A stretch of DNA of 34,977 bases from Alkalinema sp. FACHB-956 (GTDB lineage Bacteria; Cyanobacteriota; Cyanobacteriia; Leptolyngbyales; Leptolyngbyaceae). Position 1 is the stretch's first letter. Each line of letters opens with the position of its first letter. Positions 20,535 to 34,977 of this stretch are shown in pieces. Below the pieces are notes generated by a model that did no database searches, was not told where the DNA came from, and saw only the letters and a program-made list of their open reading frames with translations. A program made the translations under genes and the position numbers. The stretch spans positions 1 to 34,977 of the forward strand of contig NZ_JACJRC010000043.1 of NCBI RefSeq assembly GCF_014697025.1. The letters run 5' to 3'.

Positions 20535-20576
20535 CTTGGATCAATTCGCAATTTGAAACCTTGGGGGCAAAATCTC

Positions 20577-21161
20577 ATGATGATGCAAGCTGAAGAGAAA
20601 AAAAGCTACACACCAGATGAGTATCTTGACTTTGAGGTGAGTTCAGACACACGCCATGAGTATATCAATGGAGAAATCATTCCCATGACGGGCGGCACCC
20701 CTGAACATAATGAAATTGCCAGTATTCTTAATGCAGCCCTGAGAATGAGCTTAAAAGGTCAACCCTACAGTATTTTTGTGGCTGATCAGCGGCTCTGGAT
20801 TCCCGATCGCCAGCTTTATACCTACCCAGATGTCGTGGTTGTCCCTCGGCCAATCCAGCGACAACAGGGGCGCGCCGACACAATTACAAACCCTGTAATG
20901 ATTGCTGAAGTCCTTTCCAAGTCAACCAAAAACTACGATCGTGACGAGAAATTTGCTGCTTATCGCACTATCCCAACATTCCAAGAATATCTATTGGTTG
21001 ATCAATACATTCCTCATGTTGAGCAATACGTCAAAACTGATGCTCACCAATGGATCTTTACTGAATATAACGATATGAATTCATCAATTTCCCTATCGTC
21101 CATTCCCTTAGAAATACAGTTAGCTGATCTCTATGAAAATATTGAATTTGGATCATCATGA
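20577..21161 (+). CDS. Uma2-family endonuclease-fold protein (copy 1)
   Basis: A 194-residue protein of the Uma2 family (DUF820), which has a PD-(D/E)XK nuclease fold and is massively expanded in cyanobacteria. Seen: YTPDEYLDFE, RHEYINGEIIPMTGGTPEHN with the first conserved acidic residues, YTYPDVVVVP and then PVMIAEVLSKSTKNYDRDEK, which provides the E-x-S/K catalytic strand. The end is complete. Three in-frame ATGs sit at 20577, 20580 and 20583. Cellular role is unknown for nearly all members; they are often linked with mobile or toxin-antitoxin regions. It is followed by a paralog. Confidence 0.87.
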   Translation: MMMQAEEKKSYTPDEYLDFEVSSDTRHEYINGEIIPMTGGTPEHNEIASILNAALRMSLKGQPYSIFVADQRLWIPDRQLYTYPDVVVVPRPIQRQQGRADTITNPVMIAEVLSKSTKNYDRDEKFAAYRTIPTFQEYLLVDQYIPHVEQYVKTDAHQWIFTEYNDMNSSISLSSIPLEIQLADLYENIEFGSS

Positions 21162-21284: not shown

Positions 21285-21863
21285 ATGATTGCTCAACTGG
21301 AAACAAAACGCTACAGCACTGATGAATATTTAGAACTCGAAATTGTAGCTGACATTCGCAATGAGTATCGCAACGGAGACATTATTCCTATGAATGGTGG
21401 AACACCCAACCATAATGATATTGCTGGTAATTTGTATATCCTATTGAAGTCCACCTTAAAGGGAAAAAAGTACCGAACATTCTATGCCGATCAACGGCTT
21501 TGGATTCCTTCAGTGACTGTCTACACCTACCCGGATGTAATGGTTGTTCCCCAACCGATCGAACTCCAAACCGGACGAAAAGATACCGTTGTCAATCCCT
21601 GTTTTATTGCGGAGGTATTATCTAAATCCACACAGAACTACGATCGTAGTGAGAAATTCATTGCCTATCGCAGCATTCCTACATTCCAGGAATATTTACT
21701 CATTGATCAATACCGCATCCACGTCGAGCATCATGTTAAAACTGCCCCGCATCAGTGGTTGTTTTCTGAATACGACGATCCAAACGCAACCCTCCCTTTG
21801 AGCAGTTTTGAGTTCCAAATTCAAATTGCCGATCTCTACGAAAGCATTGAATTTGAAGCCTAG
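21285..21863 (+). CDS. Uma2-family endonuclease-fold protein (copy 2)
   Basis: A 192-residue paralog of the preceding gene, at a rough estimate about 60 percent identical by eye. It keeps YSTDEYLELE, NEYRNGDIIPMNGGTPNHND, YTYPDVMVVPQPIELQTG, IAEVLSKSTQNYDRSEK and the C-terminal ADLYESIEFE. Both copies keep the presumed PD-(D/E)XK residues. GGAGG precedes ATG 21285. The two genes probably arose by tandem duplication and have diverged, mostly in the middle and near the C-terminus. Confidence 0.88.
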   Translation: MIAQLETKRYSTDEYLELEIVADIRNEYRNGDIIPMNGGTPNHNDIAGNLYILLKSTLKGKKYRTFYADQRLWIPSVTVYTYPDVMVVPQPIELQTGRKDTVVNPCFIAEVLSKSTQNYDRSEKFIAYRSIPTFQEYLLIDQYRIHVEHHVKTAPHQWLFSEYDDPNATLPLSSFEFQIQIADLYESIEFEA

Positions 21864-30057: not shown

Positions 30058-33000
30058 GTGGAAGGGTCCTTGAATGCATCAACCATTGGCCTGCAAAAGG
30101 TCGATCAAGCCCGCAAGCGCTTAGGGTGGAATCGGCAATCGATCGTGTGGGCCCAGGCGGCACTGACCTCCGTTGCGACTCTCAAACAATTTTGGCGCGG
30201 AGAAAGAATTAGCCGTGAAAATTTTATTCAAATTTGTCAGGCAGTCGGTATTGAAGATTGGCTCAGCATTGCGGAAGAGGTCATCAATGCAGCCCAGAAT
30301 GCAGCCCAGTTTGACGATTTAAGGAACCCACTCCCCCCCCAAGGCACACTGTCTTTCCCTGCGAATCAAATTGATTGGGGCGAAGCTCCAGAAATCACTA
30401 GCTTTATCGGTCGAGAGGAGGATTTAAACACCCTCCAAACCTGGGTGGAAAACCGTTGTAAATTAATTGCCATTTTGGGCATGGGGGGCATTGGAAAAAC
30501 CACGATCGCCGTTCGGCTGGCGGAAACGTTGCAAGACCAATTTGATCTTGTTATTTGGCGATCGTTGCGGAATGCGCCAACGTTATCGGACATTTTGAAT
30601 GATATTTTACAGGGGATTGGTGAGGCGGAAGCAACCCATCTCAATCACTTTATTAATCAGTTTCTACAACTTTTACGCAATCAACGCTGTCTGATTATTT
30701 TGGACAATGCCGAATCTCTCCTGTCTGAAGGATCTGGTGTGGGAACTTACCATATCGGCTATGAAGTGTATGGAGAATTACTGCGGCGAGTCGGCGAAGA
30801 ACGACACCAAAGTTGTCTTGTGTTAACCAGTCGAGAGCCCCCCCGAGAACTATCACGGTTGGTTAGCGAAAAGGTCAAATTACTCAACCTATCCGGATTA
30901 TCCAGCGATGCAGGCAGCCAAATTCTTGCCTCCGTTGCAAATTTATCCGATGCGAATTTAACGCCGGAACAGTTCCCCGCCAATTATTCCGAAATTGTGG
31001 CGCATTACGCAGGCAATCCCCTCGCTTTGAAGATTGTTGCGGCGGGAATTCGGGATTTACTCGATCGGGATGTTGCAGCGTTTATTGAGTTATTGAACCA
31101 AGGTATTTTCCTGTTTGGTGATATTCAAGACCTGTTGGCCCGACAGTTCGATCGTCTATCCCTGAACGAACAGGAAATTTTGTATTGGTTAACGATCGTT
31201 CGAGAGCCCATTACATTGGATCGCCTCAAGACCGTTCTATTGCTACCAGAACCTAAAACTAAACTATTAGAAACGCTGGACAGTTTAAAGCGACGATCGC
31301 TCTTAGAAACCTCACTGAAGGGTTACACCTTGCAGCCCGCTGTGATGGAATATGCGCTCCGTCGTTTTCTCGATCGGGTGAGCCATGGCCTCAGAGCTTG
31401 GGTGGCCCAGACCCCACCAGCTTCTGACGCAGACTTTCATTTGCCGTGGGAATTATCCCACTTTCCCTGGTTGATGGCCACGGCACCGGAATTTGTCCGG
31501 GAAGCGCAGACCAAGTTAATTCTCGAACCCATCCTCGATCGACTCCAAGCCCATATCACCCCTTCAGAACCACTAGCTACCGTCGTTCTCAGATTATTAC
31601 AGCAGTTACGAGGTCAACCCGCCCCCAAAGTTGGCTATTGTGGGGGCAGTTTAGTCAATTTACTCGGTCACGTTCAAGGCAGCCTAGCCCAGCAAGATCT
31701 CTCTCACCTAATTCTTTGGCAGGTCGATCTGTGCATTCTTTCGTTACACGCCGTCGATCTTTCCTATGCCGATCTTTCCCATTCAGCATTAATTCAAACA
31801 TTTAGTAACGTATTGTCAGTAGCATTTAGTCCCGATGGGAACATGCTGGTTCAGAGTGATGACAATGGGTGGGTGATTGTCTGGGATATTGCCACCCGTC
31901 AGCCCTTAGCCGCATGGCAAGCCCATCCCTATTGGATCTTTACTGTAGTCTTCAGTCCCGATGGCCGTTCGATCGCCTGTTGTAGTTTAGACGGCACCAT
32001 TACGGTCTGGGATTGGCAAGCCTTCCAACAGACCCAGCCCACACGCCTATTGAATTCGGGGATTTCTAGTCATCCCAGTCCTGTTTCCAACCGTGGAAAT
32101 CGGTCCTCTCGCCCTTTTCCCTCCTCCTCCCAGCAATCCCCGCAGCACCAGTTTAGTCATCACACCGCAGGCGTGAGCGAAGTCCTGTTTCATCCATCCC
32201 AGCCGTGGCTCGCCAGTTGTAGTGCCGATCAAACGATCGGACTGGTTAATCTGAAGTCCGGTGAAATGTTGGGGCAATTGACAGGCCATGGGGGAATTAT
32301 TCGCACGATCGCTTGGGCGGCAGAGGGTCGGTATTTAGTCAGCGGCAGTCTAGACCAGACGCTGCGGCTATGGGATGTGGCCCGCCAAATTTGCTGTGGG
32401 CAGATCACCCTGGATGAACCCATCTACAAAATTGTGGGGTTACCCCGTGAGGTTTTAGGGGTTGAGGCCGTTGCGGTGGCGGGGGAAAGCGGCGACATTC
32501 GCATTTTCGCGTTAGATGCGATGATCGGTTCAGAATTAGAAGCGACAACAATAATAGCAACAACAACAACAACAGCTACAACAACTACAACACAACAAAA
32601 ATCACCCCCCACATTACAGCCATCACTCACCCAACAGTCACCTGATCCAATTCAGCATTTAATCGGCCATGACGATCGCATTTGGGGGATGGCAATAACC
32701 CATAATGGCAAACTTATCAGCAGTAGTGACGATCGCACCGTCAAGCTTTGGAATCTCCAAACGGGACAGTGCGAAAAGACCTTCTACGGTCATCAAGCGC
32801 GGATTTGGTCTGTAGCGGCCAGTGCCCAGGGGCTGATCGTCAGTGGGGGGGACGATCGCAGCGTGCGCCTGTGGCATGGTCAGACCCATCGGCGCTTGCA
32901 TCGCTTTCAGGGGTATCACAATGCTATGACGCCTGTCATTTTTGACGGTGCAGAATTGCTGACTTTCAGTACCGATCAAATTTTGCGCCGCTGGAATTTG

Positions 33001-33951
33001 ACCCAGCCCGATCCGATTCAACAATTTCCCTTGCCCACACAATCTTCCCTACAAGCGGCTCTCACGCCCGATCGCGCCCTCATTGCCAGTGGCAATTTAG
33101 ACGGAACCATTCCCCTCTGTGATGGCCGCACGGGACACCTGCGCCGCACGTTACGGGGGCATGAAGCCTGGGTGCGATATGTAGACTTTAGTCCCGATGG
33201 CCAGTGGCTGGTCAGTGCATCGGGAGATCAAACTCTGCGGCTGTGGGAGGTGGCAACGGGTAGCTGCCGTCAAGTTCTGGTGGGGCACCTGGGGCCCGTG
33301 CAAGTGGCAATCTTTGCGCCCCATGGCCGACAAATTGCGAGTAGTAGTTGGGATCACACCATTCGCCTTTGGGATCTTGAAAGTGCCAGTTGCTTACAGG
33401 TGTTAGATCCTGCCAGTGTAACGAATCGATCGCCCGATCGTGCCCAAGTGGGCCATCGCATCACCACTTTACTATTTTCCCAGGAAGGTCGTTATCTGAT
33501 GGGGGCTGGAGCCCAGGCCCAGGTACAAATTTGGGATTTACAGTCCAACCCACCCACCTGTACCGTGTTACCCCATCCCGGAGCCGTGGCTTTGGCGCTG
33601 CATCCTACGCTTCCTCTGTTAGCCAGCGCCAGCCAAAACGGAACGGTGAAATTATGGGATTTGCAAACCCAGGATTGCTGCGCCACTTGGTCTACGCCAA
33701 CGAGTTACCACAGTAATTTAGTGTTTAGTGAACAGGGAGAGTTTCTGGCGATCGGGGCAGACAATAGCACCTGTACCGTTTGGGCGGTGGAGGACTTGTT
33801 GACCCCATCTAGACGGCAATCGCCTTTGGTCTTGCAGGTCTATCGGCCCTATGAAAATACCCTCATTACCGGGATTCAAGGTTTAACAGAGGCGCAAACT
33901 GCGACCTTTATTGCGCTGGGGGCGATCGATCGTTCCCAAGCTGGACGCTAA
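30058..33951 (+). CDS. STAND ATPase: HTH, NB-ARC, pentapeptide and 14-blade WD40
   Basis: A 1297-residue signalling ATPase. Residues 1-75 are a helix-rich DNA-binding-like domain (RKRLGWNRQSIVWAQAALTS, then LKQFWRGERISRENFIQICQ) typical of cyanobacterial STAND proteins. NB-ARC: the Walker A GMGGIGKTT is at 141-149, Walker B LIILDN at 212-217 and SCLVLTSREPP and AGNPLALKIV follow. After a winged-helix-like stretch come pentapeptide-like repeats (about 546-580; DLSHL, DLSYADLSHS), then about 14 WD-like units from 582 to about 1262, enough for two seven-bladed propellers. The C-terminal VYRPYENTLITGIQGLTEAQ is a family tail. Family knowledge: such proteins sense a signal through the propellers and oligomerise, but none of the partners is known here. 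GTG 30058 is the likeliest start. Confidence 0.9.
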   Translation: MEGSLNASTIGLQKVDQARKRLGWNRQSIVWAQAALTSVATLKQFWRGERISRENFIQICQAVGIEDWLSIAEEVINAAQNAAQFDDLRNPLPPQGTLSFPANQIDWGEAPEITSFIGREEDLNTLQTWVENRCKLIAILGMGGIGKTTIAVRLAETLQDQFDLVIWRSLRNAPTLSDILNDILQGIGEAEATHLNHFINQFLQLLRNQRCLIILDNAESLLSEGSGVGTYHIGYEVYGELLRRVGEERHQSCLVLTSREPPRELSRLVSEKVKLLNLSGLSSDAGSQILASVANLSDANLTPEQFPANYSEIVAHYAGNPLALKIVAAGIRDLLDRDVAAFIELLNQGIFLFGDIQDLLARQFDRLSLNEQEILYWLTIVREPITLDRLKTVLLLPEPKTKLLETLDSLKRRSLLETSLKGYTLQPAVMEYALRRFLDRVSHGLRAWVAQTPPASDADFHLPWELSHFPWLMATAPEFVREAQTKLILEPILDRLQAHITPSEPLATVVLRLLQQLRGQPAPKVGYCGGSLVNLLGHVQGSLAQQDLSHLILWQVDLCILSLHAVDLSYADLSHSALIQTFSNVLSVAFSPDGNMLVQSDDNGWVIVWDIATRQPLAAWQAHPYWIFTVVFSPDGRSIACCSLDGTITVWDWQAFQQTQPTRLLNSGISSHPSPVSNRGNRSSRPFPSSSQQSPQHQFSHHTAGVSEVLFHPSQPWLASCSADQTIGLVNLKSGEMLGQLTGHGGIIRTIAWAAEGRYLVSGSLDQTLRLWDVARQICCGQITLDEPIYKIVGLPREVLGVEAVAVAGESGDIRIFALDAMIGSELEATTIIATTTTTATTTTTQQKSPPTLQPSLTQQSPDPIQHLIGHDDRIWGMAITHNGKLISSSDDRTVKLWNLQTGQCEKTFYGHQARIWSVAASAQGLIVSGGDDRSVRLWHGQTHRRLHRFQGYHNAMTPVIFDGAELLTFSTDQILRRWNLTQPDPIQQFPLPTQSSLQAALTPDRALIASGNLDGTIPLCDGRTGHLRRTLRGHEAWVRYVDFSPDGQWLVSASGDQTLRLWEVATGSCRQVLVGHLGPVQVAIFAPHGRQIASSSWDHTIRLWDLESASCLQVLDPASVTNRSPDRAQVGHRITTLLFSQEGRYLMGAGAQAQVQIWDLQSNPPTCTVLPHPGAVALALHPTLPLLASASQNGTVKLWDLQTQDCCATWSTPTSYHSNLVFSEQGEFLAIGADNSTCTVWAVEDLLTPSRRQSPLVLQVYRPYENTLITGIQGLTEAQTATFIALGAIDRSQAGR
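30286..30309. repeat. In-frame 12-bp duplication in the STAND gene
   Basis: AATGCAGCCCAG at 30286-30297 is repeated exactly at 30298-30309, giving NAAQNAAQ between the N-terminal domain and NB-ARC. Confidence 0.85.
32541..32600. repeat. ACA-rich triplet microsatellite in the STAND gene
   Basis: Mostly ACA/ACT triplets translate as runs of threonine (ATTIIATTTTTATTTTTQQ) between the fifth and sixth WD units, in a linker. The unit is three bases, so length changes stay in frame. Confidence 0.85.
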
Positions 33952-33995
33952 CGGAATGCTTGCGGGCTGAATTCTCCAGTTGGGTTCCAATTTTT

Positions 33996-34610
33996 CTAGC
34001 TATCCTGTTTCTGAATATATTGTTGGATGGCAGCTAAATCTGTGAACTGATCCGCCACGTTAATCAACGCATCACTCGTCATGGAGCGTAAACTGACCAC
34101 TTCAACCGTAACCCCTCGATAGGTCACCGCATTAACGACGTACGCCAAATCACCATCCCCCGTCACAATCACCATCGTATCGCAGTGATCTGCCAGCATC
34201 AGCATATCGATCGCCATTTCCACATCGAGGTTGGCTTTGCGGGAACCGTCGGGAAGTTGCACCAACTCCTTGGTAACAACCCGATAGCCGTTGCGACGCA
34301 TCCACAGCAGAAATCCCTGTTGCTTTTCATTGTGCCGATCGCTGCCTGTATAGAAATAGGCCCGCAGCAATCGACGACCCTGGGTCAAAAAGACCAAGAG
34401 ACGAATGTAGTCAATTTCTATTTGCAACTGCATCGCAGCATAAAACAAACTGGCTCCATCAATAAAAATCGCAATGCGATCGCGGGTATTAATTAGATTG
34501 GGAGTTCTTTGGGGGCGATCGCTAAACGATTCAACAATGGGAGACAACCGAGCGTTCACCAAAGGTTCTGCGGGGTTTCCATTTGTTTCGGGGGACTGTC
34601 CTGGCTGCAT
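33996..34610 (-). CDS. LabA-like NYN-domain protein
   Basis: A 204-residue protein with an NYN/LabA domain (a PIN-like nuclease fold) from about residue 44: RIAIFIDGASLFYAAMQLQI with D51, ANLDVEMAIDMLML with D129 and D135, and VIVTGDGDLAYVVNAV with D152 and D154. The acidic set is complete. The first 40 residues are polar and probably disordered. Family knowledge: in Synechococcus the LabA protein shapes circadian negative feedback, and many NYN proteins are RNases; which applies here is unknown. It converges with the STAND gene with only 44 bp between stops. Confidence 0.9.
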   Translation of the reverse strand: MQPGQSPETNGNPAEPLVNARLSPIVESFSDRPQRTPNLINTRDRIAIFIDGASLFYAAMQLQIEIDYIRLLVFLTQGRRLLRAYFYTGSDRHNEKQQGFLLWMRRNGYRVVTKELVQLPDGSRKANLDVEMAIDMLMLADHCDTMVIVTGDGDLAYVVNAVTYRGVTVEVVSLRSMTSDALINVADQFTDLAAIQQYIQKQDS

Positions 34611-34977
34611 TACTATTTCGAATACCTTTACTAAATTACAGAATTACTAAAAACTGAAAAGATCAAAAGAGTTAATCAATTAACTGATCCAAGAAAAGAT
34701 ACATCAAGCTAAACAATTCAAAGTAAAGCCAAACAAGAAAGCTCAAAAAATCTTTAATTAGAATCCATCTGCCCAATCAAACTAATTGACTCCTCAGGCA
34801 TCAATTAGTTTGTATAAACAGCTTTGAATTCTGCCTCTCTTTGCCCCAATTGGGCTACCGTGTACACACAAGTCGGAATAAACTAGGAAAAAGCGTAACT
34901 ACTCAGGCTTAAAAAAATAGAGAGTTTTTACAAGAATCCAGAAAAAGCAGTTAATTTAGCATTCTATTAGGGACTAG
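34611..34977. other. Non-coding end of the window with a long hairpin
   Basis: AT-rich, with no gene visible. A perfect 12-bp inverted repeat CAAACTAATTGA/TCAATTAGTTTG (34778-34789 and 34801-34812, 11-nt spacing) stands about 170 bp upstream of the NYN gene start. There is no T run after it. Confidence 0.55.

Follow-up and report, generated by a model that had tools for sequence, protein, structure and literature searches.

Apaf-1 combines an NB-ARC ATPase with a winged helix, a helical domain and a double WD40 propeller behind a CARD as its head, and the STAND proteins MalT and AfsR join a STAND core to a DNA-binding-type domain and use helical or TPR sensors, the HTH of MalT being C-terminal and of the LuxR type. 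In cyanobacteria, Npun_R6612 (WRAP) of Nostoc punctiforme is described in the available part of the source as a STAND module followed by 14 WD40 blades in two seven-bladed propellers, with blades that are nearly identical and a gene that is coupled to a TIR-STAND gene (PMC9218822). Cyanobacterial proteins with a metacaspase, a NACHT NTPase, a pentapeptide stretch and WD40 repeats are likewise on record (PMC3501461, available part).

The window analysed here, a stretch of 34,977 nucleotides from Alkalinema sp. FACHB-956, is one entire contig of a 6.16 Mb genome; the contig ends at position 34977, and its final two genes encode a large ATPase and an NYN protein. The ATPase has the STAND and 14-blade layout of Npun_R6612, but its blades have diverged, and inspection of the window ORFs revealed no adjoining TIR-STAND gene of the Npun_R6612 type. 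With Apaf-1 it shares the whole series from NB-ARC to double propeller, whereas its head is HTH-like and no caspase partner is known for it. The union of a STAND core with a DNA-binding-type domain recalls MalT and AfsR, from which it differs in its WD40 sensors and its N-terminal Cro/C1-like head. NTPase, pentapeptide stretch and WD40 repeats follow one another as in the metacaspase proteins, which carry the metacaspase where the window ATPase has its HTH head (PMC3501461, as far as the available text describes them). The ATPase belongs to a class that has been described before, the large and widespread cyanobacterial STAND-WD40 family, within which it has diverged. The original prediction had singled out this locus as the best candidate for a new function in the window, a ranking that does not hold up, as cyanobacterial proteins with a STAND module and 14 WD40 blades have already been described (PMC9218822, available part). 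For the HTH-NB-ARC-WD40 type, a search of the open literature at the level of titles and abstracts found no report of a tested function.

Architecture and predicted fold of the ATPase

The features of the two genes are collected in Table 1. Pfam identified the NB-ARC domain (PF00931, 56.5 bits against a cut-off of 23.5) and the WD40 repeats (PF00400, 278.9 bits) of the ATPase, and the pentapeptide stretch reached 12.8 bits, under the cut-off of 20.2. The domain set first read from the letters is thus retained in its HTH-like, NB-ARC and WD40 parts, while the pentapeptide part is weak. The Walker A and B motifs, which had been called intact, are so; after Asp216 of Walker B comes an Asn instead of a second Asp, near-invariant in the 33-row alignment. 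Counting by eye gave 14 WD40 units.

Table 1. Positions of the ATPase gene, the NYN gene and their features, numbered from the first letter of the window.
Feature	Position	Strand	Remarks
HTH-NB-ARC-(weak pentapeptide)-WD40 STAND ATPase	30058..33951	+	GTG start, 1297 aa ORF
Putative N-terminal helix-turn-helix-like domain, aa 1-78	30058..30291	+	AF2 model, hhalign, conserved residues
NB-ARC ATPase, winged-helix, then helical domain, about aa 104-450	30367..31407	+	Pfam, alignment, AF2 model
Walker A GMGGIGKT, aa 141-148	30478..30501	+	Invariant across 33 aligned rows
Walker B LIILDN, aa 212-217	30691..30708	+	L212, L215, D216 invariant, N217 nearly (33 rows)
Pentapeptide-like linker, about aa 547-576	31696..31785	+	Score under Pfam cut-off
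First seven-bladed WD40 propeller (predicted), about aa 580-943	31795..32886	+	Model and unit count
Second seven-bladed WD40 propeller (predicted), about aa 944-1260	32887..33837	+	Model and unit count
Gap separating the convergent ATPase and NYN genes	33952..33995	.	44 bp
NYN (LabA/LalA-like) protein	33996..34610	-	ATG start, 204 aa, acidic residues intact

Residues 1-566 of the ATPase were modelled with AlphaFold2 (AF2) on the basis of 33 sequences (mean pLDDT 87). In VIA-align comparisons, which barely covered the HTH head, the ATPase part of the model matched the STAND protein 6mfv, which has a TPR sensor (Z 24.9, 317 residues, rmsd 4.0), plant NRC1 (Z 24.0), Apaf-1 (Z 21.9, 338 residues, rmsd 3.9) and chain C of 8bob, labelled 'negative regulation of the maltose system', which we take to be MalT (Z 20.8). 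Foldseek placed Apaf-1 at the top of its list, and a profile search found the bacterial regulatory protein AfsR (8k60, E 5e-5). A domain with Walker A and B, together with a modelled STAND fold that includes winged-helix and helical domains, places the protein among the STAND/NB-ARC ATPases.

The model of the C-terminal part (mean pLDDT 82) contains two seven-bladed propellers, which points to two on the earlier question whether the 14 units make up one propeller or two; low-confidence insertions occur in the first propeller at aa 661-693 and aa 828-858. Model residues 55-415 of this part superpose on one seven-bladed propeller over 279 residues with an rmsd of 1.4. The C-terminal model was also matched to Apaf-1 (Z 39.0, 538 residues, rmsd 14.8) and to 2ymu, a 'highly repetitive propeller' that is presumably the Npun_R6612 domain (553 residues, rmsd 15.4); such large rmsd values are what a different angle between the two propellers would produce.

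The N-terminal heads of the family

Neither Pfam nor NCBIfam has a model that matches the N-terminal domain of the window ATPase. In the AF2 model it is a compact helical head with an HTH-like layout (helices 9-21, 29-34, 39-46 and 53-62), with pLDDT values of 80-95 per ten-residue block up to residue 70, and its residues W24, W31, L42, F45 and W46 are invariant in 13 rows. Profile-to-profile comparison by hhalign aligned 13 window-type heads with 10 Cro/C1-like heads of relatives at 97% probability. Model and sequence comparison support the presence of a DNA-binding-type HTH domain as the head of the window ATPase; HTH-like heads could, however, bind proteins instead of DNA. Together with the Pfam and fold matches, these results uphold the original view that the protein is an NLR-like sensor of the prokaryotic kind and carries a DNA-binding-like domain as its head.

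Across the order, each of 42 genomes matches residues 1-566 of the ATPase, with 1 to 23 matches per genome. Scanning genome contigs with the single ATPase protein returned no relative, and an alignment-based scan gave 80 named loci, the best 80 of 533 matches to the alignment profile; ORFs of more than 1080 aa are found in 68 of these 80. One of them, open at its 5' end, was set aside, and the heads of the remaining 79 were surveyed together with that of the window. The stretch ahead of the ATPase measures 60-240 residues in these proteins and differs in kind. With overlapping memberships, Pfam assigned the 80 heads to HTH_26 (19), HTH_3 (16), HTH_31 (13), LacI (6), GerE of the LuxR type (5), Sigma70_r4_2 (5) and the adaptor domain EAD8 (1). 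These are mostly DNA-binding models, although the resulting HTH share is a biased estimate, since the profile used to collect the loci itself carried the HTH head and may have under-sampled heads of other kinds. Sorting by patterns of our own making gave eight groups and two others, one head type presumably answering to the label VMAP-M9; an HTH nature is established for none of types 3, 7 and 8, which take up 32 of the 79 heads. As judged from their sequences, the relatives bear different HTH heads upon the same STAND body. Similar combinations are described elsewhere, in the available parts of the sources: sigma-70 proteins of cyanobacteria have accessory domains that include NB-ARC and WD40 (PMC11119718), and the ECF-like HTH domains of bacterial TRADD-N proteins were read as transcriptional output (PMC8195603).

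The NYN gene and its neighbourhood

The NYN protein is matched by PF01936 (121.9 bits against a cut-off of 24.2) and by the VPA0982 structure 2qip (E 6e-16). Its acidic residues are complete, as originally predicted: D51, E131, D135, D152 and D154 are invariant in a 10-row alignment, and the window protein also has D129. PADLOC assigned it to a candidate defence model, 'LabA-like protein, NYN family nuclease' (93.5 bits, E 3.6e-27), and weakly to HEC-09. The NYN domain and the acidic residues are common to the LabA/LalA NYN family, of which LabA and LalA are presented as circadian clock output factors in the available part of PMC5520375. The protein probably works on its own, as an RNase-fold factor of the LabA/LalA type, and with its good match to the PADLOC NYN model it may have a defence role by itself.

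There are four NYN matches in the window genome. The window NYN is a separate paralog with a weakly supported tree position, 62-63% identical to L079 and L080 of the same genome; the near-invariant LabA-like copy, L080, lies between metG and lptC, and the window gene lies elsewhere. In the clade of L080:3793-7652, near-invariant in the order, both metG and lptC are found within 1.5 kb in 36 of the 104 rows and one of them in 4 more. Deep forks of the NYN tree are weak, and its row L161, probably mis-framed, has a very long branch. A paralog clade of eight (L075:12601-13188, L076:6975-7454, L077:6837-7316, L102 from 7603, L072:5956-6513 and L162-L164) has Asn in place of the window D129 (MNVE for LDVE), and in four genomes its NYN gene is divergent from an adjoining Asp-keeping one. 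Reading this Asn as loss of an active-site Asp, and hence inactivity, was dropped: no more than 69 of 104 rows (4 unread) have Asp at this position.

The ORF coordinates confirm the predicted 44 bp between the ATPase and NYN genes, which are convergent. An operon of the two was ruled out, as their tail-to-tail orientation allows no shared transcript. A scan of 33700-34977 listed one promoter-like site (shuffle mean 1.9) and three terminator-like sites (shuffle mean 1.2, sd 1.2), none of them inside the gap, and the gap region folds no better than shuffled sequence. The GC content of the ATPase/NYN region, 0.48-0.54, is inside the contig range of 0.42-0.55.

To assess conservation of the pair, 104 places of the main NYN family were fetched from 42 genomes of the order with flanks of on average 9163 of 10000 bases, the count leaving out an NYN subfamily of about 35% identity and short fragments. 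An ATPase relative lies within 5 kb at 2 of these 104 places, the window and G023, where 1.3 are expected from density (Poisson P of at least two, 0.37), distances being measured to the match of ATPase aa 1-540 and not to gene ends. The expectation derives from 336 ATPase relatives in about 247 Mb, with genome sizes rounded and the 336 being summed per-genome counts that include relatives without WD40 repeats. In G023 (L072) the NYN gene is 480 bp from an ATPase-family member on the same strand, and the genes are other paralogs (49% and 40% identity); in its NYN clade the other seven rows all lack an ATPase relative within 5 kb, G027 having one at 7.4 kb.

Seen from the ATPase side, no NYN gene was found in the available flank of any of the 80 named loci, even under a laxer limit. 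These flanks have medians of 6.7 kb upstream and 5.0 kb downstream, some loci having almost none on one side and 60 of the 80 at least 3 kb on both; the two neighbourhood tests partly overlap, since L188, one of the 80, and L073 (G028) are identical DNA. The closest ATPase homologues, in G040 (55%) and G028 (Pantanalinema, 52%), have no NYN neighbour: the former has on one side an ORF without a Pfam match, and the latter adjoins a histidine kinase with a receiver domain and a TPR-FHA protein. Flanking ORFs also differ among seven window-type relatives. Strict class-wide lists of best relatives (388 genomes) yielded no common place besides the window, a weak result, as the lists have no more than two genomes, G000 and G028, in common. 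The co-occurrence check proposed in the original prediction did find both families, yet it is uninformative, because each is present in 42 of 42 genomes. The two places against 1.3 expected, the absence of NYN genes at the 80 loci and the other neighbours of the closest homologues put the pairing at chance level, and the adjacency is probably incidental, which agrees with the initial caution that neighbours on opposite strands prove no link. Kinases, caspase p20 and DnaJ are reported near cyanobacterial WD40 genes in a study that, in its available part, reports none of the WD40 neighbourhoods to be conserved over the seven species compared (PMC5587647).

The contig offered further observations. 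An inverted repeat at 34778-34812, upstream of the NYN gene, has 17-nt arms of 88% complementarity and a 1-nt gap. The last about 130 bases of the contig (34851-34977) recur, in part or whole, elsewhere in the window genome, and each of the seven further copies with a locus on record is no more than 450 bases from the end of its contig, so that a dispersed repeat or mobile element may have its start upstream of the NYN gene, at a distance of about 240 bp; plasmid records gave no match to this repeat. A pair of similar, adjacent ORFs, each about 200 aa long (20553-21158 and 21285-21860, one BLAST cluster), lies in the lowest-GC stretch of the contig (0.423); both presumably resemble Uma2-type nucleases.

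A possible transcriptional output and its alternatives

We favour, at somewhat better than even chances, a reading of the ATPase as a stand-alone ligand-gated STAND switch with its HTH head as output and the NYN gene as an unrelated neighbour. By analogy, it would most likely join an Apaf-1-like body to MalT/AfsR-like logic. At rest the protein would be an ADP-bound closed monomer, as Apaf-1 and MalT suggest, until a ligand binds the two WD40 propellers; the NB-ARC domain would then swap ADP for ATP and, judging from the fold, the subunits would form a ring. Such a ring might cluster the HTH heads for DNA binding and so alter transcription of target genes, which is consistent with the HTH head and with the other HTH kinds in relatives. 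The EAD8 adaptor head of one relative and the possibility that HTH-like heads bind proteins weigh against such an output. As a tentative extension, which we think possible though not probable, cyanobacteria may have a large class of cytoplasmic one-component sensors, the window protein included. In these, WD40 propellers would gate a ring resembling the apoptosome, and the ring would present HTH heads of exchangeable kinds (Cro/C1- or LacI-like, LuxR- or sigma-4-like), becoming a multivalent DNA-binding ring when a ligand is sensed.

The main rival, to our minds rather unlikely, casts the ATPase as an immune NLR: its HTH-like head would be a protein adaptor for bringing in an effector from another locus, such as a STAND protein with a TIR or caspase domain, and infected cells would thereby be killed. 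It draws on the operon-like pairing of the 14-blade STAND protein Npun_R6612 with a TIR-STAND gene (PMC9218822, available part) and on the cyanobacterial metacaspase proteins, whose placing of a metacaspase on the same NTPase-pentapeptide-WD40 body makes a role in defence or death possible (PMC3501461, available part). The 1 to 23 matches per genome and the varied heads resemble what is seen in conflict systems, and Avs3 is also in the Foldseek list. Against this, inspection of the window ORFs, rather than a per-ORF domain scan, revealed no TIR, caspase or further STAND gene, and no second NB-ARC match is listed on the contig. Moreover, the PADLOC matches of the ATPase fall on its WD40 part (HEAT-ARM_XIII, E 3e-30) and only weakly on the NTPase part (Avs4, E 0.008, this part only), and the Pfam matches of the heads are mostly to DNA-binding models.

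Repressor-type heads such as LacI and Cro/C1 are a better fit to promoters than to DNA sensing in general. This makes it improbable that the HTH head or the propellers sense DNA, with foreign or damaged DNA serving as ligand and not as target, even though the heads of the family match nucleic-acid-binding models and DNA sensing has been reported for Apaf-1-like proteins (PMC11747288, available part). That the ATPase and the NYN nuclease, as its effector, form a single defence or regulatory pair is hardly credible: the 44-bp spacing, the intact acidic residues, the PADLOC matches to the LabA-like NYN model and, weakly, HEC-09, and the G023 case speak for it, but the relatives examined show no conserved neighbourhood, an outcome that the original prediction had named as refuting, 102 of the 104 NYN places have no ATPase relative within 5 kb and none of the 80 ATPase loci has an NYN gene, and the G023 genes are same-strand paralogs whose NYN clade mates stand apart from any ATPase within that distance.

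With the tempting defence pair removed as unsupported, the favoured reading of a stand-alone switch leads to a better question, namely why a family with an Apaf-1 body bears different kinds of DNA-binding heads in cyanobacteria, and the variety of HTH heads is the part worth following. If these heads bind promoters, NLR-type activation would in this family be tied to transcription instead of cell death.
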